Shown: one piece after another, positions 48,201-64,000 of the stretch
Numbering within the stretch: position 1 is the first letter of the stretch
How the letters are laid out: the number at the start of each line of letters is the position of its first letter
Assembly (NCBI GenBank): GCA_019694165.1
Contig: JAIBCL010000012.1
Location: forward strand, 1 to 64,000
DNA: 64,000 nt
Reading direction: 5' to 3'
Origin: Verrucomicrobiaceae bacterium
GTDB lineage: Bacteria > Verrucomicrobiota > Verrucomicrobiia > Verrucomicrobiales > Verrucomicrobiaceae
Notes under the pieces: model-generated
The model's input: only the letters and a program-made list of their open reading frames with translations
What the model was told of the DNA's origin: nothing
Databases searched by the model: none
Position numbers and translations under genes: made by a program

Positions 48201-51200
48201 TCACTTCACCACCACCAGCCGCATGTAGCGTCGTGGATGCGCGGCGTTGGTGATTTGGAACTGGTCGCGCACTTCCACGGTCCGCGTCGCTCCGCTGCCG
48301 GTCTGCACCACGCCGGCTCCGCTGGCGAGCACGGTGAATGCAGCGCCGTTGATGCTGCTGGCGAGGTCGGTCCACGGGCCGGTGAGGCTGTCTGCGGCCT
48401 GCACGGTCATGGTGATGTCGGTGTTTGCGAGCGTGCGTGTGAAGACGAGCGCGAGCTTGTTGTTGCCGATGGCAGCCTGCGGCAGCGCCGTGGTGGCGCC
48501 AGTGTTGGGATTTCCGCCGAGGGCGTATTCGAGCAGGTTCACGATGCCGTCGCGGTCTGGGTCGGCGAGATCGCCGGCGATGGCGGAGTTGGTCCAACTG
48601 GAGCCGAAGTTCGCTTGCAGCCAGTCGGTGTTCGGAGTGTCGGGCGTGACGGTGAGCACGAAGGTGTCGCTGCTGGTCAGCGTGCCGTCGTTGACGTTCA
48701 GCGTGACGGTGGCGGTGCCGTTTTGATTCGCGGCGGGCGTGAGCGTGATGGTGCGGCTCAAGCCGCTGCCACCGAGCGTGATGCCGCTTTGTGGGAGAAG
48801 CGTGGTGTTCGATGACGCGGCGCTGACGGCCAGCACGCCGCCGGTCGTCTCGGCATCGTCGATGGTGAAGGACAGCGGGCCGGTGCCGAAGTCTTCGACG
48901 ACGGCCACGTCGGCCACGTTGCTGATGACGGGTGCGTTGTTTGCCACATTGATGATGGCGGCCAGCTCGGCGGGACTCAAGGCGTGGTCGTAGAGGCGCG
49001 CTTCATCGAGATGGCTGCGGAACCAGAACTGCGTGGACATGGCACCTGCGTAGATGAGTGCATCATTGGCGAAGTCGGTGCGGATCGTGCCGGAGGCGAC
49101 CTGGATGCCATTGCGGTAAAGAGTGGCCGTGCCGTTGAGACGGTCCACGACGGCGGCGACATGCTGCCAGCGGTCAAATGCGATGGTGCCGGTGGCGGAG
49201 GCGGCATTTGCACCTGCGGTGCCGTTGCCCGTGGCGAAGAGCAGCTTGGCATCGCCGGTGTTGAAGGTGTTCACGTAAAAGCGGAAGCCGCTGGTGGTGT
49301 TGCCGCCGGCGGAGTTCGCGAGGACGGTCTGGATTTGCGAAGTGCCGGACGGCACATGGATCCACGCGCAGGCAGTGAAGGCATCACCGACCGGCACGGT
49401 GGAAGTGGTGGCGGCGCGTTCGCTCGTGCCGTTGAGCTGGAGCGAGCGCGAGCCTTGCTGCTTGAAGGTGGCAAAGGTCGCCGTCCCACTGTGAGTGAGA
49501 TCACGGCCATTGCCCGTGGTGTCGCCGAGGTTTCCGTCGAAAGGCCAGCGTGCGAGCGCGCCGCTGACGCCGTCCGCCGGCGTCACGGTGAGCGTGAAGG
49601 GATCGCTCGCGGTGAGGCCGCCCGCGTCGGTCACAGTGATGGTGATTGTCGCCACTCCGTGTGCGCTGGCATTGGGCGTGACCGTCACGGTGCGGCTCGT
49701 GCCGCTGCCGCCGAAGACGATGCCGCTTTCCGGGACGAGCGCGGTGTTGCTGGAGCTGCCGACGAGCGTCAGGTCCGCCGCGGGAGTCAGGGCATCATCG
49801 ACGGTAAAGGCGATCGCGGTGGTGGCGGAGCCTTCCGTGATGGTCTTCGCCGTGATGTTGCTGATCGAGGGCGGATCATTCCAGAACAACGTCGTGGTGG
49901 CGGCCGTGGACGTCTCCATGGCAGCGCTCACCGTCTCCACTTCGATGGTGGTGGATGTCTCCGTGCCCGCGCGGTCCACTTCGGGCACGAAGCACGCATC
50001 CTTGCTCGCGGCCCAGAGCCAGGTGCGCGAGCTGTCGGTGTTGCGCCGATACACGTTGTAGCTGCGGACGTTCGTCGATGCGGAGGGCGTCCACCGCACA
50101 CGCAGGGACTTGCGCGTGCTGCTCACGTCGTAGGCATTCTCGATGGTGACGCCGCTCGCGGCCGCGGGCGCGGTCAGCGTGCCATTGTAAAAGGCAAGCT
50201 CGCCGAACTGCATCGAGTAGCTGCTGACGGTGCCTGTGGCCGTGGGATCAAAGCGGAAGCCGATGGCTCCGACGTTGCGTCCGGCATAGGCCGTGAGGTC
50301 GATGATCTTCGTGGACCAGCCGGTGCCGGCGCGATTGCCGAAGGCGATGTATTCCCAGGTCGTCGGCGCATCGGTGAAGGCGAGCGCGAGCTTGAGGTTC
50401 GTCGCCGTGTTCGCGTCGTTGTCCTTGTAAACGACGCGCAACGACGTGGTGGCGGTGACACTGAGATTCGCCGCGTAGAGTTTGAGATCATTGATGGCAT
50501 CGAGCGTGCCGCTCACCTTCAAACAACTGCCGCCGGTGTAGGCGTCATTCCACAACCACGCGGGCGTCAGCGGCGTGGCGCTGGTGGTTTCCACGATCCA
50601 TTGCCAGCTCGGCAGGATGTCCTGCGTGGTGAGATTGTGCCAGTTGAAGGTCACTCCCGCCGAGTCCAGCGCGGGACGCACGAGCACACCCTTCCACCAG
50701 AAGCGGTTGCCGTGGCCGACATTGAAGCTCGTCACAAACGGCGCCGAGCGCACCGGCGTCCACTCCTGGACATAGTGCGCGATGCCTTCCCAGTCGCTCG
50801 TGCCCGCAGTGCCCGGCGTGTTTGCCGGATTCTCATTCGGACCGCTCCAGAACTGGCGCTCCCTCTGGTAGAAGACGGTGCTGTCGTTGTTCGACTTGTC
50901 GAAGGTCCAGTTCGGCTGGTAGAGGCCCACGGAAGCCTTGTGCGCCACGCCCGTCGGCCAGACGTTGGCCCAGTTCACCACCGTGTTGAAGCCGTCTGCC
51001 TGCACGTCGATGCCGAAATACACGTCGAACGGACTGCGTGAGAGCGAGGTGGCCGTGCTCACGCCCGTGTTCACCTTTGCGGCGGTCCAGCCGAAGTCCG
51101 CGAAGAACGAATCGCTCACCAGCGTGGCACCGTCCTGGAAGAAAGCGTCGTTCGCCGTGTTCAGCGTGTCCTGCCATGTGACGGTGCCGCTCTCGGTCAT

Positions 51201-51893
51201 CGCGTCATACCACATGACTTTCAGGGCGGAGTTCGTGTGGATGTATTTGATGAAATTCCTCACCTCCGTGGCGAGCGCGGCATCACCACCGTCCGTCTCC
51301 TGATTGATGAACCAGCCGTCGAAACCGCACCAGTTCGCGATCTCGATCAGCTTGTCCGCGATGACGTAGTTCGAGCCGCTCTTCTGCACGAGCGCCTGCA
51401 CCCACTCGATCTTCCCGCCGAAGGCCGTGGGCGGGAAGAAGATGTTCCCGAACACCGGCACGCCGCTGCGGTGCGCGGTGTCGATGAGGGTCGGATTCGG
51501 CGCGAGCACGATGCCCGCGCCCGCGGAGCCGCCCCACATGACGAGCTGGTTCACATACTGCCAGTGCGCGAAGGCGTAGTAGTCGAGAAAGGCCGCTGTC
51601 TTCTCGCCCTGCGCAGGGTTGTTGTTCGCCGCGTGGAAGGAGGACAGCGCGGTGACACCGCCTTCGCCGCTGCGTGCGTTGGCGTTGACCTTGAAGGCTG
51701 CGTTCCGTCCCCGCGCCGCGAGCGCAGTGCCGCTGCGCATGTAGGGAGCGTCGGGGTCCGATGCGATGCTGTAGTTCAGCAGGTAGGCCGGATCAGTGTC
51801 CTTTAAATGCCACAACCCCGCCCACGGCTGCCCTGGCACGGCAGCACGCGCGACGGCGACCATCAGGATGAAAACGGTGAGGATGTAGCGCAT
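48201..51893 (-). CDS. Secreted GH85 endo-beta-N-acetylglucosaminidase with Ig-like and LamG domains
   Basis: The 1230-residue protein has a signal peptide (about 1-17). The catalytic GH85 barrel (about 20-400) has the family motif FDGWFINQET, with the stabilising Asn197 and the acid/base Glu199. It should cleave the chitobiose core of N-glycans by substrate-assisted catalysis. A jelly-roll ancillary region and an Fn3-like domain (about 590-680) are followed by an Ig-like repeat (about 690-790), a LamG domain (about 795-1000) and a second Ig-like repeat (about 1005-1105). The tail has DPDRDGIVNLLEYALGGNP and ends RRYMRLVVVK. The two Ig-like repeats are uninterrupted and are useful references for the interrupted one in the metzincin protein. 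Confidence 0.86.
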   Translation of the reverse strand: MRYILTVFILMVAVARAAVPGQPWAGLWHLKDTDPAYLLNYSIASDPDAPYMRSGTALAARGRNAAFKVNANARSGEGGVTALSSFHAANNNPAQGEKTAAFLDYYAFAHWQYVNQLVMWGGSAGAGIVLAPNPTLIDTAHRSGVPVFGNIFFPPTAFGGKIEWVQALVQKSGSNYVIADKLIEIANWCGFDGWFINQETDGGDAALATEVRNFIKYIHTNSALKVMWYDAMTESGTVTWQDTLNTANDAFFQDGATLVSDSFFADFGWTAAKVNTGVSTATSLSRSPFDVYFGIDVQADGFNTVVNWANVWPTGVAHKASVGLYQPNWTFDKSNNDSTVFYQRERQFWSGPNENPANTPGTAGTSDWEGIAHYVQEWTPVRSAPFVTSFNVGHGNRFWWKGVLVRPALDSAGVTFNWHNLTTQDILPSWQWIVETTSATPLTPAWLWNDAYTGGSCLKVSGTLDAINDLKLYAANLSVTATTSLRVVYKDNDANTATNLKLALAFTDAPTTWEYIAFGNRAGTGWSTKIIDLTAYAGRNVGAIGFRFDPTATGTVSSYSMQFGELAFYNGTLTAPAAASGVTIENAYDVSSTRKSLRVRWTPSASTNVRSYNVYRRNTDSSRTWLWAASKDACFVPEVDRAGTETSTTIEVETVSAAMETSTAATTTLFWNDPPSISNITAKTITEGSATTAIAFTVDDALTPAADLTLVGSSSNTALVPESGIVFGGSGTSRTVTVTPNASAHGVATITITVTDAGGLTASDPFTLTVTPADGVSGALARWPFDGNLGDTTGNGRDLTHSGTATFATFKQQGSRSLQLNGTSERAATTSTVPVGDAFTACAWIHVPSGTSQIQTVLANSAGGNTTSGFRFYVNTFNTGDAKLLFATGNGTAGANAASATGTIAFDRWQHVAAVVDRLNGTATLYRNGIQVASGTIRTDFANDALIYAGAMSTQFWFRSHLDEARLYDHALSPAELAAIINVANNAPVISNVADVAVVEDFGTGPLSFTIDDAETTGGVLAVSAASSNTTLLPQSGITLGGSGLSRTITLTPAANQNGTATVTLNVNDGTLTSSDTFVLTVTPDTPNTDWLQANFGSSWTNSAIAGDLADPDRDGIVNLLEYALGGNPNTGATTALPQAAIGNNKLALVFTRTLANTDITMTVQAADSLTGPWTDLASSINGAAFTVLASGAGVVQTGSGATRTVEVRDQFQITNAAHPRRYMRLVVVK

Positions 51894-52190: not shown

Positions 52191-55100
52191 ATGCAAACGC
52201 AAACTGTCCGCCCCGCCCGCCTCGCCTCTTGCATCATGGCCTGTTTCATGACTCTGTGCGCGACCAGTAGCGTGTTCGGCATCACGGATCTTCTGAAGTG
52301 GCCGGCCGGCCAGGTGCCGGTGGGGCAGACGAACGGGCCGGACCAACTGGACGACATCTGGCAGGGACTGTTCAATGCGTGGGCGCTGGCACCATCCGCG
52401 GATGAGGACAATGACGGGTGCTCGAATCTGGTGGAGTCCATCGCGGGCACCAATCCGTTCTCGACCACTGATTGCCTCAAGGTGGGGAATACGGTGATCA
52501 CCGGCGGCAATGTGATCTTCACGGTGAAGGCCGAGGCGGGGAAGAAGTACCGTGTGCTGAGCTACGACACGCCGAACGGGGCGTCCACGGTCGTGTCGAT
52601 GACCTCCCCGGTGGCTGCGACGCAGTGGATACCGACAACGAACCAGGCCACGGCGAACATCGTAATCACCAAGCCGGCGAACACGCGGAAGTTTTACCGG
52701 CTGGAGACCAGCGACGTGGACACGGACGGTGATGGTGTGACGGACTGGGCCGAGCGCCGGATTGGCCTCAATCCCAATGCGACGGACAGCGACCTCGACG
52801 GCGTGCCGGACGGCACGCTGGTGAGCAGTGAGCTGCAAATCCCGGACACGGTGACCATCAGCGCCACGAAGTCCATCGCCGCCGAGGATCCCCTCGATCC
52901 GGGCGAGGTGACCATCACGCGCACGCGCAAGCTGCTGCCGATGACGGTGAATTATTCTGTGACCGGCACGGCGAGCACGCCTACGGATTTCACCGCCGCG
53001 CCGTCCGGCACGTCGGTCGCGCTCCTCGCTGGCGAGACGAGCAAGGTCATCGCGATTACACCGGTACAGGATTCCGCAGCGGAAGCGGGGGAGTCAGTGA
53101 CGGTGACTCTGACATCCGCCACGACCGGATCGCTGCCGAATCCGACCATCGGCTCGCCAAGCAATGCGACGGTGATCATCAACAACTCGACGGCTGCGAC
53201 GGGCACGGGCTTGAAGGCGCGGTATTATGACACGTCCAGCAGCACACAGGCGGATGCGGCAAACTTCGGTCAGTTGTCGAACGGCGGCTTTGTCTATACT
53301 CGCAACGGCAGCACACCCTACACCGGGAGCACGATCGTCGTGCCCACCACCTACAGCGGGCCGCCGGCCCTGGCGGTGGGCAATCAGGTGAAGCTCAGCT
53401 TCAATGGCGGCGGGCTGGACGGCAGCGCGTTCGACAATCAGGTCTATGCCATCACTGCGGTGAATCCGGGAGTGAGCTTCACCGTGGGCATCTCCGGCGC
53501 GGGACTGTCAACGGTGTCGAGCTACACGAATCAAACGTGCAGCTTCAGCATCCAGAGCTTCCCGCATCCGGGCGTGGTGGAACGCATCGAGGCGGTGAAC
53601 TTCGACTGGCAGCATGGCACGCCGAATGGCGCGGTGATCCTGCCGAACAATTCGGCGGACAACTATTCCGACACGTTCGAAACCTTCCTCAATCCGACGA
53701 CGGCGGGCAGCTACGTCTTCCAGCTCGATGCGGACGACAAGGCGCGGGTGCTGGTGGATCTGGACCTCAGCGGCACCTTTGATCTGCCGCAGGAGCTGGT
53801 GGTGGAGCACAACTGGAACGTGCCGGGATCGGATCCCGTCGGCACGTTCAAGCAGGGCTTCTCGCTGGCCGGGGCCGCCACCACGGCGAACAGTCCGGTC
53901 ATCTCCGTCCCTTCGACGACCGGGCTGGCAGTCGGCATGGCGGTGAGTGGCACGGGATTGCCGACGGGCGAATTCATTACGGCCATCGGTTCGGGACAGA
54001 TCACTGTGACCACGGGCACGAATGTCACCGCCCAGGCCAGTACGACGCTCATCTTCACGCCCGTGATTACACTTGCCGTGCCCGGCACCCCGGCGCAGCG
54101 CTACAAGATGCGTGTGGAGCATGTGGAGACGACGGGTGATGCGCGCTGCCGCCTCCAGTGGAGCGTCAATGGCGGCACCTTCGCCAACATTCCGCAGGCC
54201 AATCAATTCACGCACACGCAGGCGCTGAACTACAGCTTTTCGGGTGCCAATGCGGTGATCATCCCGACGGGCGGGCACAGCCTCACCGCCGGCGGTTCCG
54301 TGTCGCTAGCATTCTCCACGGGTGTGCTGTCCACGCCGGGGACCAGCCTCGGGACCCATACGGGGAACTACACCATCAGCTCTGTCAGTGGGTCCGGGGT
54401 GGTCACCGTCGCCGGGGCATCGACCACGGCCGGGAGTGCTACCGTCACGGTGCCATCGACTGCCGGTCTGGTGGTGGGCATGGCGATCACCGGCACGGGT
54501 CTGCCCGCCAATGAGTTCATTACGGCCGTTGGATCCGGCAATATCACGGTGACGACTGGCACGGGGGTGACGGCTCAGGCCAGCACCACACTCACGGCCA
54601 CGAGCACCTTTGTGGTGCCGATCACCGCCTTCTCTGTCCCGGTTTCCGGCGCGGCGACGACGGCGGGCAGTGCCATCGTCAGCGTGCCCTCGACGGCTGG
54701 CCTGGCAACAGGGATGGCGATAAGCGGCACCGGCCTGCCGGCTAATGAATTCATCACGGCGATCACCCAGTCCACGCCGACGCAGCCGGGTCTGCTCACG
54801 GTGACAACATCCACCGGCATCACTACGCAGGCCAGCACCACGGTAACCGCGGTGCTTCCTGCAGGTCCGGTCACCGGTGCAGGCTTTGTGCAGAACATGA
54901 CGACGAGCACTACAACCGGTGTCTTCAATCTCAGTTACCCAAACACGACTTTCACCGGCTCGCCGGGCCGTATGGCGGTGGATGCAGCGGTGACCACGGG
55001 CAACAACGGCCTTTGGAACTCAGGCACTCCGGACGGGGCGCTCATCGCCGCCGACACCTTCTCCGCCCGGTGGACGGGCCAGGTGCAGCCGCAGTTCAGC

Positions 55101-58100
55101 GAGGAGTACACCTTCGTCGTGCAGGCGGATGACGGCTGCGCGCTGTGGATCAATGGGCAACCGCAGGTTTTGAAAATGTATCCCTCGGCCTCCACCGGCG
55201 GCAGCACTTACACTTACAATGCGACGACGGGTGACCTCACGTTGAACTATTCGGGCCTGGCCACCGTGGCGGGCAGCTTCGTCGTGGGCGAGACGGTCCG
55301 CCTTGATCCGACGAGCGGGAATCTGAACCACAATCCGACGACGGTGCCCACCTACACTTATGATCCCACCACGAATCTGATGGTGGTGGATTACACCAAT
55401 TTGGTTCCTCCGGCCTCCGGCGGCACGCGGACTGCGGGCAGCTACGTCGTCGGCGAGACCGTGGAGTTGGACCCGACGAGCGGCAGTCTGAATTCCCTTT
55501 CCCTGCTGCCCTACACGATCACGGCGGTGTCGGGGAACACATTCACGGTGAATGCCGGCTCGCTGACCTTCAATCCGACGTTGAGCATCGTGAGCATCGC
55601 CACGGGAGCGGCGTGCCAGATCACGACGGCGACCAATCACAACCTGACCACCGGTGCCCAGGTGAGGATCTCATCGGTCAGCGGGGGCACCTTCTCACCT
55701 GCGATCAATGATCTGTGGACCGTGACGGTCACCGCTCCGAACTCTTTCACTGTTGCCTCGAATTGCACGGTCGCCCCCACGTCGGGCACGGGTACTGTGG
55801 CCGCCTCGGGTAACATTACCGTGAGCGACAACCGGAATCTGGTGATCACCAGCACGCCGACGACCACAAGTTTCGTCGTCAACATCGGCACGGGCAAGTA
55901 CGCCGACGCCAGCACGGGCAACATGAACGTGGACATCGTGAACAAGTCGCTCAAGGACTGGGCCTCGAACACCAACGAGCGCTATGCGCGCATCCCGATG
56001 ACAGGCGGTCTGCGCTATGACATCCAGCTCGACTACTACGAGTCCTCGAGCGCGGCGCGCTGCCTGCTCTCGTGGTTCAGTGCCAGCCAGCCGAAGCAGA
56101 TCATCCCGGCGGAGCGCCTGTATCCTTCGACGGGCGCCATCCAGCCGCCGGCGAGCACGACGCCGACGGATGCCGTGGCGCTGGTGGGCGGGGCCTTCTC
56201 GCTGCCTGTGACGGGTGACAATGGCTCGACGCCCACCGTGAGCGGTCTGCCGGCGTGGCTCAATTACAGTGGCGGCGTGCTCAGCGGCACGCCTCCTGCG
56301 GGTACGGCGGGCACCTACCAGATCATCGTGACGACGACCGGTTCCGCCGGCACGGGCACCTCGGTGATCAATCTCGTGGTGCAGGAGAACGCCGGCAATG
56401 TCACCCGCGAGATCTGGTCGGGGGTCAGCGGCACCACGGTGGCAGGCATCCCCACGAGCACGGCTCCGTCGCTCACGGGCACGCTTAGCACGCTCGAGTC
56501 GCCGTCGAACTACGACGACAACTACGGCGAGCGCCTCCGCGGCTACATCACCGCACCGGTCACGGGGAACTATTACTTCTGGATCGCTGCGAGCAATGCG
56601 GCCGAACTCTGGATCGCCAACGACGACGACTCGGTGAACACGTTCCGCCGTGCATACGTGACGACCGGCACCAATTCGCAGGAGTGGAACGCCGCCGGTG
56701 AGACGAATCAGAAGTCCGGCTGGCTCGCGCTGGAGGCAGGGAAGCGCTACTACGTCGAGGTTCTCCACAAGGCGGGCGTTGGCAGCGATAACCTCGCCAT
56801 CGGTTGGTCGAAGCCCGGCCAGTCCACCGCCGCGCCGAGCGAGGTGGTGCCGTCTTATGTGCTCTCGCCCTATGTCGCCCCCGCCCCTGGTGCGACACAG
56901 GGCACGTTGTACATTTCGACCATGCTGGCTCAAGCGGGTGCTGTAACCAATGGGGTCGGCACCGCGACGTTGCGCGTGAGCGGGGACGAGTCGGTCGCTT
57001 ATCTTCGCTTCTCTTACAGCGGGTTGACCGGGTCGCTGACATCCAAGCACATTCACGCCGACCCATATCTGAGCCACCCCGCTGGCGAGATCATCTATGA
57101 CATCGACACACCGGACACACCCGGTGACGGGTTGATCACCAATCCGAGCGATCCGAACTACGGTGCCTACAAGTGGACGATCGCCGCCCGCGGAACCTAT
57201 TCAGCGGCGGAGATACGTGAGATCATCAAGGAAGGGAAGACCTACATCAATCTGCACACCGGGATGTATCCGAATGGCGAGATTCGCGGGAATTTCACTC
57301 TCTCCAACGGCACGCGCACCTTTACCGCGCCGCCTGCACCGCCAGCGTGGACGGATGACAGCAACACGGACGCCGGTGCAGTGCGCTTCCTCACGCAGGC
57401 GAGCTTCGGCGCGAACATCGCGGAGATCGCGGCCTTGAAGGGCCTCGCGCCGTCCGGCACCACCAACTCACGCTACGAAACGTGGATCAACAACCAGTTC
57501 GCTCTGTCCGCGACGCCGCACCTGAGCGAAGTGCTCGCGCGCGAGATCGCGGACGTGTTCGGCTCCTTTGACGTGAAGGTGGCCTACGACACCTGGTGGA
57601 AGACATCCATGACGGCGCCGGACCAGCTTCGCCAGAAGGTGGCCTTCGCGCTGAGCCAGATCCACGTCGTGTCCGGCAGCGGGCCGCTCGAGGACAACTC
57701 GCGGGCCATCGCGGACTTCTATGACACACTTGCGACCAACGCCTTCGGTAATTTCAGCGACGTCCTCACCGGCACTACCCTCACGCCGGGCATGGGCCGC
57801 TACCTCGACATGCTGCGCAACGACAAGCCCGACATCGCCGTGGGCCGCAGCCCGAACGAGAACTATGCGCGCGAGATCAAGCAGCTCTTCTCCATCGGCC
57901 TCTACCGCATGTGGCCGGACGGTACGCTGATGCTCAGCAAGGACGAAGCTCCGATCGACACCTACACGCAGCGCGAGATCGTTGGTTTGGCCCATGTATT
58001 CACCGGGTGGGAATACGGCTACGACGGTGCCTACCGCACTTCATTTTCTGCCAGTGCGGACTGGACGCGGCCCATGCGCGAGGTGCCTGCCCGCCACTTC

Positions 58101-60188
58101 ACCGGCACCAAGCGCGTGCTGAACAACGAGGTCTTCCCCGGCCTCACTTCCGTGGGCGGCCAGCCGCTTGATCCCTACGCCACGCATCTGAGCACGCAGT
58201 ACAACGATGCCACCTACCAGGCCCTGCCTGCGCAGGAACTGGCCGCGGCGCACGCCATGCTCTTCAATCACCCGAACACCGGCCCCTTCATCTGCCGTCA
58301 GCTCATCCAGCGCATGGTCACGAGCAATCCCTCGCGCGACTACCTCTATCGCGTGGTGCAGAAGTTCAATGACAACGGCTCCGGTCTCCGCGGCGACATG
58401 AAGGCCGTCATCAAAGCCATCCTGCTTGATTACGAGGCGCGCAGCCCGGGCATGATCACCATCCCCGCCTTTGGCAAGCAGCGCGAGCCCGTGCAACGCG
58501 TGACCAATGCCGCCCGCGCGCTGCGCCCGGCCGGCGTCACTGGTTCCTATGCGCAGAGCGGCACGAACGTCATCACCATCACGACAACCACGCCGCATCT
58601 GCTCACCGCCGGGAACAGCGTGTTCCTCGAATTCACCGACACGACCGGCGATCCGGCCAAACCCGCGCCTACCACCGGCACCTACAGCGTCGTTAGCGTG
58701 ACGGATGGCACCCACTACACCATCAACGCGCCCGGCTGGATGGGCGGCACCTACAGTCAGACCGCCGGCAACAACTTCATCACTGTGACGATGAGCGGCC
58801 ACTGGCTGCCGGGCACCAATGGCAGCCAGCCCAGCCTGCCGTCTGCCAATTTCGGGCAGGCCTATTTCGATTTCATCACCAACGCCACCGGCACACTGCC
58901 GGCTGACGGCATCCGCACCACGACCTCATCCACATCGTTCGATACGCCGAGCGGCGTTGGCAATGTGTCGGGTTCCACGTTCACCATCCCGGCTCCGGAC
59001 ACCACGGCACGCAGCGGAAATGTGGCGATCTCCCGCTTCCCCAGCAGCTACTCCTGCACGGGCCGCAACGGCGTCATCACCATCGACACCACCTACTCCA
59101 GCGCGGGCGCATTCGGGACGATGGCGGACCACCATCTCTCCGTGGGCGACCAGGTCTTCCTCAATTTTATGAACTCGCGCGACACCACGTCCTTCAACGA
59201 AACCTCGACGGAGAACGACCTCGTGTACACCATCACCGACATACCGGACCCGAACACCTTCACCGTGCAGGCGCGCGACGCCGCGAATGCGGCGATGGCC
59301 AGCGACAACCAGGTGACCGTCTTCCCGCTCAAGGCCCAGCCCCTCACCCGCAGCGGCAACATCAATGCCCGGCCCTCCACGTTTACGATGGACAACACGG
59401 ACACCGACCTGGCGCAGACGCCGCTGAACTCGCCCACTGTCTTCAATTACTTCCTGCCGGACTACAAGTTCGCCGGCTCGCTCGCCTCCCAGGGCATCAC
59501 CACGCCGGAATTTCAGCTCACGTCGGAGACCACCGTCATCCGCCAGGCGAACTTCTTCCACGCAGGCGTCTTCAATCCGAACAGCACCACCGGCTACAGC
59601 AGTTTCAAGAATGGCACAAATGCCATGGTCATGGACCTCAGTCCGTGGATGGGCACCACTTTCCCGCTGGCCAGCGATGGGCTCGGCCTGCCGTCGGACA
59701 CAAACAAGGCGTGGACTAGCAACGCCAACCTGTCGACGTTGATCGATCACTTCAATACGCTGCTCCTCGCGGGCCAGCTTCCGGCGGCGGCTAAGACCAC
59801 CATCGTCAACTACCTGAACACTCCCATCAGCGCGATCACGGTGAGCAATCCTTGCTCCATCACCACAGCTTCTGCGCACGGTCTGGTCGATGGTGACAGC
59901 ATCACCATCAGCGGTGTGACCGGCGGCACGTTCCGCAACTCGGCAAACTCCGCCAACGTCTCGATCAATCAGGCCTTCACCGTCACCGTTACGAGCGCGA
60001 CCACCTTCACACTGAACATCACCGGTGGCATTCGCTGCACCAGCACGGCCGGGCTTATCCTGACCAGCGCTTATTACTCGCCGATCGCCTACACCGACTC
60101 CGGGCCGACAGCCACGCAGATTCGCGACCGTCTGCGCAACGTCCTGCACTTGATCCTCACCAGCCCCGATTACGCCATTCAAAGGTAA
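52191..60188 (+). CDS. Giant DUF1800 protein with Calx-beta, PA14, CHRD and inserted beta modules
   Basis: The 2665-residue protein has a signal peptide (1-30), an N-terminal Asp-rich DEDNDGCSNLVE segment, a DTDGDGVTDWAERRIGLNP repeat and a Calx-beta domain (about 217-335). Three PA14 domains begin near 340, 945 and 1402. A CHRD domain (about 1572-1707, SKHIHA and NGEIRGNF) precedes the DUF1800 domain (about 1729-2665), identified by PDQLRQKVAFALSQIHVVS, NENYAREIKQLFSIGL, VFTGWEY and the terminal LHLILTSPDYAIQR. PA14-1, PA14-2 and DUF1800 are each split by small beta modules (see findings); PA14-3 is intact. The next gene is its usual DUF1501 partner. PA14 and CHRD suggest carbohydrate binding at the surface; the function of DUF1800 is unknown. 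Confidence 0.85.
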   Translation: MQTQTVRPARLASCIMACFMTLCATSSVFGITDLLKWPAGQVPVGQTNGPDQLDDIWQGLFNAWALAPSADEDNDGCSNLVESIAGTNPFSTTDCLKVGNTVITGGNVIFTVKAEAGKKYRVLSYDTPNGASTVVSMTSPVAATQWIPTTNQATANIVITKPANTRKFYRLETSDVDTDGDGVTDWAERRIGLNPNATDSDLDGVPDGTLVSSELQIPDTVTISATKSIAAEDPLDPGEVTITRTRKLLPMTVNYSVTGTASTPTDFTAAPSGTSVALLAGETSKVIAITPVQDSAAEAGESVTVTLTSATTGSLPNPTIGSPSNATVIINNSTAATGTGLKARYYDTSSSTQADAANFGQLSNGGFVYTRNGSTPYTGSTIVVPTTYSGPPALAVGNQVKLSFNGGGLDGSAFDNQVYAITAVNPGVSFTVGISGAGLSTVSSYTNQTCSFSIQSFPHPGVVERIEAVNFDWQHGTPNGAVILPNNSADNYSDTFETFLNPTTAGSYVFQLDADDKARVLVDLDLSGTFDLPQELVVEHNWNVPGSDPVGTFKQGFSLAGAATTANSPVISVPSTTGLAVGMAVSGTGLPTGEFITAIGSGQITVTTGTNVTAQASTTLIFTPVITLAVPGTPAQRYKMRVEHVETTGDARCRLQWSVNGGTFANIPQANQFTHTQALNYSFSGANAVIIPTGGHSLTAGGSVSLAFSTGVLSTPGTSLGTHTGNYTISSVSGSGVVTVAGASTTAGSATVTVPSTAGLVVGMAITGTGLPANEFITAVGSGNITVTTGTGVTAQASTTLTATSTFVVPITAFSVPVSGAATTAGSAIVSVPSTAGLATGMAISGTGLPANEFITAITQSTPTQPGLLTVTTSTGITTQASTTVTAVLPAGPVTGAGFVQNMTTSTTTGVFNLSYPNTTFTGSPGRMAVDAAVTTGNNGLWNSGTPDGALIAADTFSARWTGQVQPQFSEEYTFVVQADDGCALWINGQPQVLKMYPSASTGGSTYTYNATTGDLTLNYSGLATVAGSFVVGETVRLDPTSGNLNHNPTTVPTYTYDPTTNLMVVDYTNLVPPASGGTRTAGSYVVGETVELDPTSGSLNSLSLLPYTITAVSGNTFTVNAGSLTFNPTLSIVSIATGAACQITTATNHNLTTGAQVRISSVSGGTFSPAINDLWTVTVTAPNSFTVASNCTVAPTSGTGTVAASGNITVSDNRNLVITSTPTTTSFVVNIGTGKYADASTGNMNVDIVNKSLKDWASNTNERYARIPMTGGLRYDIQLDYYESSSAARCLLSWFSASQPKQIIPAERLYPSTGAIQPPASTTPTDAVALVGGAFSLPVTGDNGSTPTVSGLPAWLNYSGGVLSGTPPAGTAGTYQIIVTTTGSAGTGTSVINLVVQENAGNVTREIWSGVSGTTVAGIPTSTAPSLTGTLSTLESPSNYDDNYGERLRGYITAPVTGNYYFWIAASNAAELWIANDDDSVNTFRRAYVTTGTNSQEWNAAGETNQKSGWLALEAGKRYYVEVLHKAGVGSDNLAIGWSKPGQSTAAPSEVVPSYVLSPYVAPAPGATQGTLYISTMLAQAGAVTNGVGTATLRVSGDESVAYLRFSYSGLTGSLTSKHIHADPYLSHPAGEIIYDIDTPDTPGDGLITNPSDPNYGAYKWTIAARGTYSAAEIREIIKEGKTYINLHTGMYPNGEIRGNFTLSNGTRTFTAPPAPPAWTDDSNTDAGAVRFLTQASFGANIAEIAALKGLAPSGTTNSRYETWINNQFALSATPHLSEVLAREIADVFGSFDVKVAYDTWWKTSMTAPDQLRQKVAFALSQIHVVSGSGPLEDNSRAIADFYDTLATNAFGNFSDVLTGTTLTPGMGRYLDMLRNDKPDIAVGRSPNENYAREIKQLFSIGLYRMWPDGTLMLSKDEAPIDTYTQREIVGLAHVFTGWEYGYDGAYRTSFSASADWTRPMREVPARHFTGTKRVLNNEVFPGLTSVGGQPLDPYATHLSTQYNDATYQALPAQELAAAHAMLFNHPNTGPFICRQLIQRMVTSNPSRDYLYRVVQKFNDNGSGLRGDMKAVIKAILLDYEARSPGMITIPAFGKQREPVQRVTNAARALRPAGVTGSYAQSGTNVITITTTTPHLLTAGNSVFLEFTDTTGDPAKPAPTTGTYSVVSVTDGTHYTINAPGWMGGTYSQTAGNNFITVTMSGHWLPGTNGSQPSLPSANFGQAYFDFITNATGTLPADGIRTTTSSTSFDTPSGVGNVSGSTFTIPAPDTTARSGNVAISRFPSSYSCTGRNGVITIDTTYSSAGAFGTMADHHLSVGDQVFLNFMNSRDTTSFNETSTENDLVYTITDIPDPNTFTVQARDAANAAMASDNQVTVFPLKAQPLTRSGNINARPSTFTMDNTDTDLAQTPLNSPTVFNYFLPDYKFAGSLASQGITTPEFQLTSETTVIRQANFFHAGVFNPNSTTGYSSFKNGTNAMVMDLSPWMGTTFPLASDGLGLPSDTNKAWTSNANLSTLIDHFNTLLLAGQLPAAAKTTIVNYLNTPISAITVSNPCSITTASAHGLVDGDSITISGVTGGTFRNSANSANVSINQAFTVTVTSATTFTLNITGGIRCTSTAGLILTSAYYSPIAYTDSGPTATQIRDRLRNVLHLILTSPDYAIQR
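53868..54059 (+). repeat. 64-residue beta module, copy 1 (inside PA14-1)
   Basis: The encoded segment has the pattern VPSTTGLAVGMAVSGTGLP, then EFITAI, then ITVTTGTNVTAQAST. It interrupts the first PA14 domain between its VGTFKQGFS and VITLAVPG parts. Confidence 0.75.
54411..54602 (+). repeat. 64-residue beta module, copy 2
   Basis: Exactly the same length as copy 1 and very similar (VPSTAGLVVGMAITGTGLP, then NEFITAVGSGNITVTTGTG). It follows a different module of the HxLTAGGSVSLAF type at about 54262-54410. Confidence 0.75.
54645..54854 (+). repeat. 70-residue beta module, copy 3
   Basis: A third copy (VPSTAGLATGMAISGTGLP) with six extra residues after EFITAI. It lies 42 bases after copy 2. 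Confidence 0.75.
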
Positions 60189-60258: not shown

Positions 60259-61884
60259 ATGAATCCGTTCCTCAAAGCTCCAAACATCCTGACCCGCCGC
60301 AGCTTCCTCCGCCAGAGCATGTATGCCGGCGCCGGCCTCTCGGCGGCATCGAACGCGATCCGCGACCTGCGCCTGATCAATTCAGCGATGGCCACCCAGC
60401 CGGCGCTCACGGGCTACAAGGCGCTGGTCTGCGTCTTCCTCAGCGGCGGCAATGATTCGAACAACTGGATCGTCCCGACGGACGCGACGACCTTCGATCA
60501 ATACACCACCATCCGCGGGAATCTCGCGCTGCCTTCCTCATCGCTGCTGCCGATGTATTCCACTGGAACCACGCCGTATCAGGACAGCGACGGGCACACC
60601 TTTGGTTTTCACCCCTCGGGAGCCCGGCTTCGCACCTTGTTCGGCGAGGACAAGCTCGCTGTGCTCTTCAATGTAGGTACCCTCGTCCGCCCGACCACTC
60701 GTGCGCAGTACAATTCCGGCCTCGCCGCCTACCGTCCGCCGCAGCTCTTCTCGCACAGCGACCAAGTCACCCAGTGGCAGACCTCCATTCCGGATCAACC
60801 GCCGTCCACCGGCTGGGGCGGCCGCGTGGCCGATCTGGTCAACGGTCCGGCCAGCAATCCCTCGACCAGCATTTCCATGTCCGTATCCGTCGCGGGATCG
60901 AATACTTTCGAGGTGGGCAACCAGATCGCCCAGTATCAGGTCTCGACTTCAGGTGCCGTGGTGCTCGCCGGCACTCTTCCAGGATCTACCACGGCTGACC
61001 CGCTGATCGCCGGCACCGGTGCACGCGCGCGCGCCCTGCAGGCGATCAACAATCTGACGCCTGCTCAGTCGGGCATAAACAACCTCCAGCGCGCCGCCCT
61101 TGCCGACGTGACCAAGAACGCCATCGCCAAGGGCGAATTGCTCAATACCAACATCGCCGCTTCGCTTGACCCCACTGATGCCCCGGCCGGCGGCTACACC
61201 AACGCGCAGCAGACCGCCGGTTTCGCGGCCGGGCAGACCTTCAAGTGGAACACGGGCCTCACCGGCATCTACAATACCTCCATGACCGGCTTCACCGACG
61301 GACTCGGAGGCTTCCCGAACACCACGCTCGGCACGCAGTTGAAGATGGTGGCGCGACTGATCAAGGCTCGCGGCGCAGGCGGCTTCAACATGAAGCGCCA
61401 GATTTTCTTCTGCAACGTCGGTGGCTACGACACGCACACCTCGCAGGTCTCCGTGAACGGCACAGACCAGCCCACGAATGCGAACGGCGCGCACTACAAG
61501 CTCCTTGCCGAGGTGAACGACTGCATGTTCGCCTTCCAGCGCGCCATGGAGCAGCTCGGAGAGTCGAGCAATGTCACGGCCTTCACCGCCAGCGACTTCT
61601 CCCGCACGCTGCCCACCAACAGCCAGGGCAGCGACCACGGCTGGGGTGGCCACCATATCATCGTCGGCGGTGCCGTGAAGGGCGGCCAGACCTACGGCCA
61701 CCTTCCGACTTTCGCAGTGAACGGGCCGGACGACACCGGCCTCGGCCGCTGGATTCCCACCCTCGCCGTCGATCAGTACTCCGCCACGCTCGCGAAGTGG
61801 TTCGGCGTCGATGCCTCCGAGATGGCGAACATCTTCCCGAACCTCGGCCGCTTCTCGTCCTCTGACCTCGGCTTCATGCTTTGA
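60259..61884 (+). CDS. DUF1501 protein paired with DUF1800
   Basis: The 541-residue protein begins with a Tat-like signal (LTRRSFLRQSMYAGAGLSAAS, Arg13-Arg14). Family motifs are ALVCVFLSGGNDSNNWIVP, FCNVGGYDTHTSQ, FTASDFSRTLPTNSQGSDHGWGGHH and IVGGAVKGGQTYG. It differs from the planctomycete-type DUF1501 at 21138-22526 and belongs to the type that follows DUF1800 genes in many Gram-negatives. It starts 70 bases after the DUF1800 stop and is presumably co-transcribed. The pair is widespread and exported, but its biochemical role is not established. Confidence 0.9.
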   Translation: MNPFLKAPNILTRRSFLRQSMYAGAGLSAASNAIRDLRLINSAMATQPALTGYKALVCVFLSGGNDSNNWIVPTDATTFDQYTTIRGNLALPSSSLLPMYSTGTTPYQDSDGHTFGFHPSGARLRTLFGEDKLAVLFNVGTLVRPTTRAQYNSGLAAYRPPQLFSHSDQVTQWQTSIPDQPPSTGWGGRVADLVNGPASNPSTSISMSVSVAGSNTFEVGNQIAQYQVSTSGAVVLAGTLPGSTTADPLIAGTGARARALQAINNLTPAQSGINNLQRAALADVTKNAIAKGELLNTNIAASLDPTDAPAGGYTNAQQTAGFAAGQTFKWNTGLTGIYNTSMTGFTDGLGGFPNTTLGTQLKMVARLIKARGAGGFNMKRQIFFCNVGGYDTHTSQVSVNGTDQPTNANGAHYKLLAEVNDCMFAFQRAMEQLGESSNVTAFTASDFSRTLPTNSQGSDHGWGGHHIIVGGAVKGGQTYGHLPTFAVNGPDDTGLGRWIPTLAVDQYSATLAKWFGVDASEMANIFPNLGRFSSSDLGFML

Positions 61885-62472
61885 ACAGAAGCTGTCCTGA
61901 CGGGATCGAGATGTGACGTCGTGACTGCGATCCACACGGCGTCACACGGTGCCTTCCAAGTTCCGACGAAGTATTCAGCCGCGAGTTTTGCGTGGAAGTG
62001 TGCGACCTGTTTTCCGGGGTGTTCGCATGGATTTCACTCTGGAGCGGTTCTGTGCGGTGGAGACTGAAACAATGGTGAGGTGAAGAAGGGTCGCGCGCCA
62101 TGCACGGCGTTGGCCGTGTTCGTCTCCCGGAGCGCAACGCCCTTGGCCCACGGAACTGCGCCGTGGGTGCCCGTGCGATCTTGACTGCGCTAGCACGCCC
62201 GACGTCGAACGGAGGAAGTGAAACAGCCGCGGTGATGTGTGCAGAGGCTCGCTCTTGCGTTCTTGGCTGTTTGCTCGGTCCGCCGATGCGCTGCTTTTGG
62301 CAGCTTTGCAGTTCGCGGCATGAAGTTACAAGTTTCTTATAATTATAACAAAATCATTGACTCTATTTGTTGCATTTGCTATAAATACCACATTCCGATG
62401 CTTCTGATGTGCCAGTTGGCTTTCGGCTTCTTCGGATCAAACACAAACAAACAACAGCCCAATACCAAAACC
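61885..62472. other. Long intergenic region with hairpin and AT-rich promoter island
   Basis: No convincing gene was found here. A 7-bp perfect hairpin lies at 62147-62167 with a 7-base loop, and a weak inverted repeat at 61912-61946. The stretch from about 62325 to 62400 is sharply AT-rich compared with its surroundings. It contains a perfect 12-base palindrome, TTATAATTATAA, at 62337-62348, just upstream of a strong promoter. The transcript would have a leader of about 80 bases before the pilin start. Confidence 0.7.
62357..62385 (+). promoter_or_regulatory. Strong sigma-70 promoter for the first pilin-like gene
   Basis: TTGACT at 62357-62362 and TATAAA at 62380-62385 are 17 bases apart, and a TG at 62377-62378 gives an extended -10. 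The palindrome at 62337-62348 lies 8 bases upstream of the -35 and could be an UP element or operator. Confidence 0.72.
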
Positions 62473-62883
62473 ATGAAAAACACTAAACTGAATCTCAAGA
62501 AGGCCGCCACTGCCGGCTTCAGCTTGATCGAAATGCTCGTCGTGATCGCCGTTATCGGTGTGATCGCCGCCATCGCCATCCCGAACATCGGCAACATCAA
62601 CAGCAGCGCCATTGACTCGGCCGGTCAGCGCAATGCGCAGTCCGTCGCGTCGGTTTACAGCGCCGGCCTGTCCGCTGGATGCCCTGTGGCGTCCGACTTG
62701 AACGATGCTCTTGCCAAGGTCGGCAGCGGCACTTGGGCGCCTGAGAGCGGAGCGTTCTCCGGCAGGGTCTTCCTCGTGCCGAACCTTCCGGCCGATCCGA
62801 GCGACGGGTTCACCGCCATGATGAGCCACCTCGACTGGGACGCCGCCAACAAGTACGTCAAGTACTTGCAGGTAGCTCCGTAA
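62473..62883 (+). CDS. Type IV pilin-like / pseudopilin protein 1
   Basis: The 136-residue protein has a class III leader of 15 residues with cleavage predicted before Phe16 (AG|FSLIEMLVVIAVIGVIAAIAIP), Glu at mature position 5 (Glu20) and a long hydrophobic helix. The short C-terminal domain (about 45-136) has a single Cys and matches no known pilin closely. The start at MKNTKLNLKK follows an A/C-rich leader without a Shine-Dalgarno. It has the strongest promoter in the window and may be an abundant subunit. The pilus or secretion machinery is not in this window. Confidence 0.88.
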   Translation: MKNTKLNLKKAATAGFSLIEMLVVIAVIGVIAAIAIPNIGNINSSAIDSAGQRNAQSVASVYSAGLSAGCPVASDLNDALAKVGSGTWAPESGAFSGRVFLVPNLPADPSDGFTAMMSHLDWDAANKYVKYLQVAP

Positions 62884-63110
62884 CTCGAGCGGGCAGACTC
62901 TGCCAGTGCTGCGGCGGTGCCGGAGTGCGGGTGGATATGCCTGAGATTCGCGGAGGATTGCTTGTCATAGGGGCCGCATAGTGAAGGCCGGAGCGGCCTC
63001 CGCGAACCACCAAACAGCTTCCCCGCTGGTGCCAGTCATGTGTGCCAGCGGGGATCGCGTTTCAGAACAGGTTCAGTTCTCCAAACACTCGACCGGTATT
63101 CGATTTCAAC

Positions 63111-63614
63111 ATGAAAACATCACGCAAGAAGCGCACGAGGCCTTTCCACGGTGGCTTCACCCTCGTGGAAGCCGTCATCACCATCGCCGTGGTGGGCATC
63201 ATGGCATCGCTAGTCGTCAGCGGCATGACGAACCTCTCGCGCGATTCCCAGCGAATCGTGGGCCGGCAGCAGCAGGCTGCGGTGCAGAATGCGATCAACG
63301 CCTGGGTCATGAGCAAGACACGGGTCGAGAGTTCGCCCGGTGTCTTCACCTCCCAGGTCATGAGCATCAATGACATCCGCTCATTGTACAACGGGCAGTC
63401 AACGGCCAAAGGCAAGTTCGAGACCTTCCTCGCCCCTAATGCAACCACCGGTCTGGGCGGCTTTCTCGACGTGACCACCTCGGACCACATCAAGTCATAC
63501 ACGACAAACAACCAGCAGTTGAAGACCTCGGCGCTCGACCTGGCCAAACAGCATTTGGAACTGCCCACATGGACGGCAGGTGCCTTCCCGAAGGTGGACC
63601 TCGTCAACGACTGA
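63111..63614 (+). CDS. Type IV pilin-like / pseudopilin protein 2
   Basis: The 167-residue protein has a basic leader (KTSRKKRTRPFHGG), predicted cleavage before Phe16 and GFTLVEAVITIAVVGIMASLVVS with Glu20. The start at MKTSRKK was chosen because it gives a normal-length leader; an earlier in-frame Met 23 codons upstream would not. The soluble part (about 55-167) has no Cys pair and no recognised subfamily. It lies 227 bases after the first pilin gene and 54 bases before the third. It is probably a minor pseudopilin or pilin. Confidence 0.85.
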   Translation: MKTSRKKRTRPFHGGFTLVEAVITIAVVGIMASLVVSGMTNLSRDSQRIVGRQQQAAVQNAINAWVMSKTRVESSPGVFTSQVMSINDIRSLYNGQSTAKGKFETFLAPNATTGLGGFLDVTTSDHIKSYTTNNQQLKTSALDLAKQHLELPTWTAGAFPKVDLVND

Positions 63615-63668
63615 CAACAGCCATCATCCCGGACTTCCCCTCCCCAAAAAAAAGCATTTTCGCATAAC

Positions 63669-64000
63669 ATGAAACCGCCTCCGTCACCGTCCCATGCAGC
63701 CGCCTCCAGGTGGGGGGGATTCTCCTTCGTCGAGATGCTCGCTTCCGTGGCCATCATCGGCATCATTGCCTTCCTCGCCATACCCTCGATCTCGAAAATG
63801 AGGGAGGACAGCGAGAAGAATCTGGCCATTTCCAGGGCTGAGGCGCTGAACATGGCGCAGTCCACCATGGTTCAGGTGAAAGGCCGCACCCAGGCTGATC
63901 TGGACTGGAGAAATGCCGCCACCAACGACGCGAAGTATGTGCTTCTCCAGCCCTACTTGAGCTACGCGGAGAGCACCCTGGCTGCCTATCTGCCTTCCGG
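63669..64000 (+). CDS. Type IV pilin-like / pseudopilin protein 3, cut by window end
   Basis: The first 110 residues are visible. A 17-residue leader ends WGG, followed by FSFVEMLASVAIIGIIAFLAIPS with Glu22 at mature position 5. The next region is helical (REDSEKNLAISRAEALNMAQ), as in the alpha-1 C half of pseudopilins. The gene runs off the right edge. Three pilin-like genes in a row on the same strand suggest one operon for a pilus or type II-like apparatus. Confidence 0.85.
   Translation, partial: MKPPPSPSHAAASRWGGFSFVEMLASVAIIGIIAFLAIPSISKMREDSEKNLAISRAEALNMAQSTMVQVKGRTQADLDWRNAATNDAKYVLLQPYLSYAESTLAAYLPS

Follow-up and report, generated by a model that had tools for sequence, protein, structure and literature searches.

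The window, a 64,000-nucleotide stretch of DNA from a Verrucomicrobiaceae bacterium (contig JAIBCL010000012.1, positions 1 to 64,000), contains at 52191-60188 on the forward strand an intact open reading frame (ORF) for a protein of 2665 amino acids (aa), in which a Pfam scan recognized TSP3, Calx-beta, three PA14 stretches, CHRD, E1_FCCH and DUF1800. DUF1800 (PF08811) was matched with 215.2 bits (cut-off 26.1) and PA14 (PF07691) with 96.7 bits over its three stretches (cut-off 24), the third of which (PA14-3) scored 41 bits alone. The adenylation domain ThiF of ubiquitin E1 enzymes was absent from the eight Pfam families matched at E up to 1. Its nearest named relatives are from metagenome-assembled genomes of Verrucomicrobiota, several of them labelled Verrucomicrobiaceae or Prosthecobacter. 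On balance, we favor the reading that loops of the PA14 and DUF1800 domains are interrupted by two kinds of predicted beta module, one FCCH-type (F) and one designated G, some nested in others, and that duplication and the recombination of gene segments between orthologues, not transposition, have spread these modules.

Beta modules in the DUF1800 and PA14 domains

The predicted model of the DUF1800 domain is helical and broken by beta structure at two places. A helical first part (aa 1732-2114; 57384-58532) is followed by an all-beta insert comprising F7, F8 and F9 (aa 2115-2393; 58533-59369), a helical middle part (aa 2394-2543; 59370-59819), a second all-beta insert holding F10 (aa 2544-2630; 59820-60080) and the last helices of the host (60081-60185), all on the forward strand, as are the features described below unless otherwise stated. 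The beta blocks were found where a preliminary description, made from the sequence, had placed the two splits. All-beta blocks in a helical host, together with a predicted FCCH fold in two modules, refute for DUF1800 the notion that the inserts are normal parts of one fold; the model of the first two PA14 domains was too poor for the same comparison. For DUF1800 this yields a helical fold, predicted with confidence, in which the inserts are marked. Sequence searches with the DUF1800 and G alignments found no solved relative below E 0.1, neither predicted model had a Foldseek match at E 0.001, and the VIA-align listing held no clear row for the DUF1800 helical core, which may still have a known fold.

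The first PA14 domain (PA14-1) holds F1 (aa 373-450; 53307-53540) and G copy A (aa 559-622; 53865-54056), in agreement with the split coordinates described earlier. The second (PA14-2), rightly described as split at about 55165-55950, was matched in two parts, aa 924-991 (54960-55163; profile positions 15-80, E 2.3e-11) and, weakly, aa 1256-1307 (55956-56111; profile positions 92-145, E 0.075), with about 265 aa separating profile positions 80 and 92. Between these parts lie the tandem modules F3 and F4 (aa 1003-1121; 55197-55553) and F5 (aa 1127-1205; 55569-55805). PA14-3 (56496-56834) is uninterrupted, as had been proposed, its profile being matched continuously over positions 37-142. The linker between PA14-1 and PA14-2 carries F2, whose first part (aa 683-737; 54237-54401) is parted from its last strand (aa 804-817; 54600-54641) by the nested G copy B (aa 740-803; 54408-54599), and the widely shared G copy C (aa 818-887; 54642-54851). 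Copies B and C are thus linker copies outside PA14-1, B within F2.

About nine F modules were counted, instead of the seven or so first estimated. Their profiles matched one another in hhalign comparisons (for example F5-F10, 99.6%; F3-F4, 98.4%; F7-F9, 96%). E1_FCCH (PF16190) scored 33.7 bits on the whole protein over two stretches (cut-off 29.5) and, module by module, 24.8 bits on F10 and 20.4 bits on F5, the other modules scanned giving no match; F5 and F10 are also the two modules that match the FCCH beta-barrel fold in predicted models. The earlier count of three G copies, two of them of 64 residues, stood: A and B have 64 aa as bounded here and C has 70. Copies A and B share 71% identity over 184 nucleotides (nt) and 72% in protein, and the copies compared start and finish with similar beta-strand motifs, as judged by eye. 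G had no Pfam match above cut-off and no NCBIfam match, and among PHROG families matched phrog_17105 weakly (E 4.2e-5). Homology between G and F was considered and rejected (hhalign at most 24%); a value of 97.7% for F5-G was an artefact of a G row of locus L028 inside the F5 alignment and dropped to 3.0% once that row was removed.

Presence and absence of modules in related proteins

The DUF1800 inserts are old, common to the measured window-type relatives and absent elsewhere, so that the idea of inserts shared by all orthologues across deep phylogeny held in part. Across loci L036-L097, mostly from other phyla, the DUF1800 host model was matched in one piece through both insert sites in 58 of 62; three of the others could be matched no further than position 401-431, which is beyond the first site, and L038 was split. 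Anchors flanking the first site lay 40-57 aa apart in 34 of the 35 measured in this set. The orthologous loci that were measured gave 294-342 aa (L031 and L035, both more distant, 272 and 265 aa), and paralogues 537-636 aa. At the second site, empty versions spanned 117-150 aa and filled ones 219-247 aa in the loci, with L132b and L144 at 176 aa. In this measure the value for L142 (1,370 aa) probably reflects a wrong anchor, and L138, L139, L218 and L219 gave 354 aa; L027, L208 and six of 63 database proteins were left out. In DUF1800 of the same-genome paralogues L127 and L128, FCCH-type modules occupy a third site (model position 251).

Other inserts differ between orthologues. PA14-1 of L133 and L134 cleanly lacks F1. 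Among the aligned loci, copy A occurs in the window and in L208; among the 63 database proteins it occurs in four, namely the window protein itself (P0001) and three of the 62 others, of which P0011 matches L208 at site A. Copy B was found in eight of the 63, one of them with two copies, and a further copy within PA14-2 (copy D) in L028, P0014 and P0047. The 63 proteins are not a frequency sample, because the query that retrieved them held three G copies. At site A, filled by copy A in the window, L027 and L029 carry some three additional residues, perhaps the scar of a deletion. A single stop (L029:4223-4225), either genuine or an assembly error, breaks the orthologue frame inside the site-C G copy.

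Counts of changes on the 32-row host tree were two for A, one for B, three for C, one for D and one for the absence of F1; these omit seven or eight rows without the region, outgroups included, and the tree has long branches (L031, L145) of unsure placement. All inserts might instead be ancestral to one large protein, with empty sites arising by secondary loss. The absence of F1 in L133 and L134, as one change, could be such a loss, the two changes of copy A could be one gain followed by many losses, and the extra residues in L027 and L029 could be a scar. However, the 58 loci without both DUF1800 inserts, the single changes of copies B and D and the use of another DUF1800 site by paralogues argue against this explanation, which we regard as rather improbable.

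G is not confined to this gene family. Matches occurred in 36 of 57 genomes, with at least 27 in the window's own genome, and among the matches listed G lies in open frames as long as 14,376 aa; two of these giant-frame stretches contain what we take to be autotransporter-like beta repeats. Searches for a phage or plasmid origin (copy A against phages, copy B against plasmids) gave no tblastn match at E 0.01, and a phage search with the whole protein matched one record, over PA14-2 only.

Tree conflict, insert borders and mode of spread

Trees of the inserts conflict significantly with that of the host. In a linker-segment tree built without G columns (22 rows), a branch with support 98 separates the eight rows carrying copy C from the rest; L208, L027 and L029 are placed elsewhere by the host tree, and grouping them with L136 in the linker segment was rejected (p 3e-5). 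Likewise, in the PA14-2 insert segment L133 falls with L019 and the window, and placing it with L134 was rejected (p 6.6e-4). When four host clades were tested against nine host and six insert segments (one insert test had too few rows to run), 8 of 23 insert tests rejected the host clade at p<0.01, as did 3 of 36 host tests (Fisher p 0.015). Segments exchanged between orthologues therefore appear to be what moves. Alignment error and convergence in sequence rich in T, S, G and V could mimic such conflict, as the segments are short and several inserts are less identical between clades than the hosts are. Yet the eight insert rejections differ by 42-81 log units, and one of them agrees with the shared copy-C content although its tree was built without G columns, so we consider error and convergence in place of recombination quite unlikely.

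The DNA itself carries little sign of mobility. The short direct repeats expected at the insert borders were looked for at A, B and C, with G borders placed only roughly, and none exceeded shuffled sequences: there were no terminal inverted or direct repeats and no target duplications, and exact matches reached at most 5-6 nt (p 0.23-0.67). Fourfold sites agreed in 14 of 33 positions between A and B and in 11 of 29 and 10 of 36 for the other pairs; there are no recent DNA-level copies among the three. The DUF1800 host of the window and L018 agreed at 42 of 113 such sites. A dedicated mobile DNA element, similar to a miniature inverted-repeat transposable element (compare the Rickettsia palindromic elements), might insert G in frame, and the occurrence of G at four sites of the gene family (A, B, C and D) and also in giant open frames unrelated to it would fit this idea, as would the mixing of A, B and D in one part of the G tree, at weak support. 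Set against this are the borders just described, the low fourfold agreement of A and B despite 72% protein identity, and the similar beta-strand ends of the copies, which fit a protein unit. We judge such an element highly unlikely. The lack of repeats, the few shared fourfold sites and the saturation of the host as well point to old events with selection on the protein and not to a recent mobile element. Of the spreading module first proposed, repeated in-frame insertion into folded domains thus stands, with orthologues found with and without individual inserts, while a mobile element in the DNA sense is not supported.

The favored reading, insertion with duplication and segment recombination, would operate as follows. 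Each module probably folds alone with its ends close together, and a host would tolerate it for that reason. Existing copies of the gene itself, or the G pool in the family's giant proteins, may supply new ones, homologous recombination of flanking host sequence would act as the carrier, and a few tolerant loops would accept the modules. A bolder version, which we put forward only tentatively and hold doubtful, makes the two beta-module families protein-level insertion cassettes that use tolerant loops to invade folded domains as well as one another and are swapped between species by recombination; a G sub-lineage found at three host sites (A, B and D) is what a spreading unit would produce. 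If true, one gene family would preserve an experiment of nature in domain insertion, its members showing empty, single, tandem and nested arrangements.

Several points weigh against the favored reading. In the pairs compared, synonymous positions have reached saturation, which leaves no means of dating an event or reading its DNA break points. The C copies are largely separate in the G tree, whereas A, B and D are interspersed with giant-protein copies at weak support; this tree is short (66 columns) and 53 of its 92 inner branches have support below 80, too weak a basis for tracing where A and B came from. Host segments conflict too, CHRD rejecting two clades and one DUF1800 segment rejecting one; because of the CHRD conflict, exchange is not limited to the inserts. 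Some conflict may also be model error given the short segments (71-153 columns). Some F pairs have no detectable relation (F3-F5, 0.7%). Finally, the placement of modules inside the fold of PA14-1 and PA14-2 is a reading of sequence, since those two domains were modelled poorly (mean predicted local distance difference test score 58.7; predicted template modelling score 0.29).

Neighboring genes and known systems

The host protein is likely secreted, and its N-terminal signal-like stretch (read by eye), PA14 and Calx-beta domains suggest a secreted adhesive or glycan-binding protein. The CHRD segment occupies aa 1591-1730 (56961-57380). Downstream lies a DUF1501 gene (60259-61884; Pfam match 89.9 bits, cut-off 27). 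DUF1800-DUF1501 pairs are known: PMC5122149 reports them next to genes for chitin synthase and notes a twin-arginine motif in proteins of the DUF1501 family. The modules may enlarge a putative secreted protein, exposed at the surface and adhesive or glycan-binding, that would act together with the DUF1501 partner. Just upstream on the opposite strand, 48201-51893 encodes a GH85 glycoside hydrolase that includes Laminin_G_3 and Ig-like domains, and downstream of DUF1501 three consecutive forward-strand ORFs (62239-63998) have pseudopilin-like starts (FSLIEM, FTLVEA and FSFVEM, by eye). Elsewhere, one contig (G031:C1, at about 243-260 kb) carries three large DUF1800 frames near each other.

Among the papers listed by a literature search, ten of the 398 on FCCH among them, none dealt with these insertions, including split PA14 domains or autotransporter repeats of Verrucomicrobia. 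The locus is an instance of nested domain insertion, which is known. It differs from the FCCH domain of ubiquitin-activating enzymes (PF16190) in that no ThiF was found and the modules recur, partly in tandem, and sit within PA14 and DUF1800 hosts. As in the survey of Schaeffer et al. 2026 (PMC13114784), which reports recursive nesting up to six levels, a domain interrupts a domain; the terms PA14 and ubiquitin-activating were absent from its main text, and here orthologues with and without inserts, together with tree conflict, present insertion as a process. Rickettsia palindromic elements (PMC10969869) are likewise repeated in-frame additions within unrelated proteins, but copies A, B and C show neither terminal repeats nor DNA-level conservation. 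The BACON repeats of crAss-like phages (PMC6949934) resemble our modules in being small domains acquired either through duplication or when individual domains are transferred horizontally; they are described as tandem repeats in phage tail-associated proteins, whereas ours interrupt the domains of a protein from a bacterium. A bacterial host protein with DUF1800 also sets our modules apart from the beta modules of phage virions (tail proteins of T1 and FCWL1; endosialidase). Domain insertion is usually viewed as finished and ancient; here, related bacteria have the same sites empty in some members of one gene family and filled, doubled or nested in others, and the steps by which a domain comes to accept another can therefore be ordered and tested.
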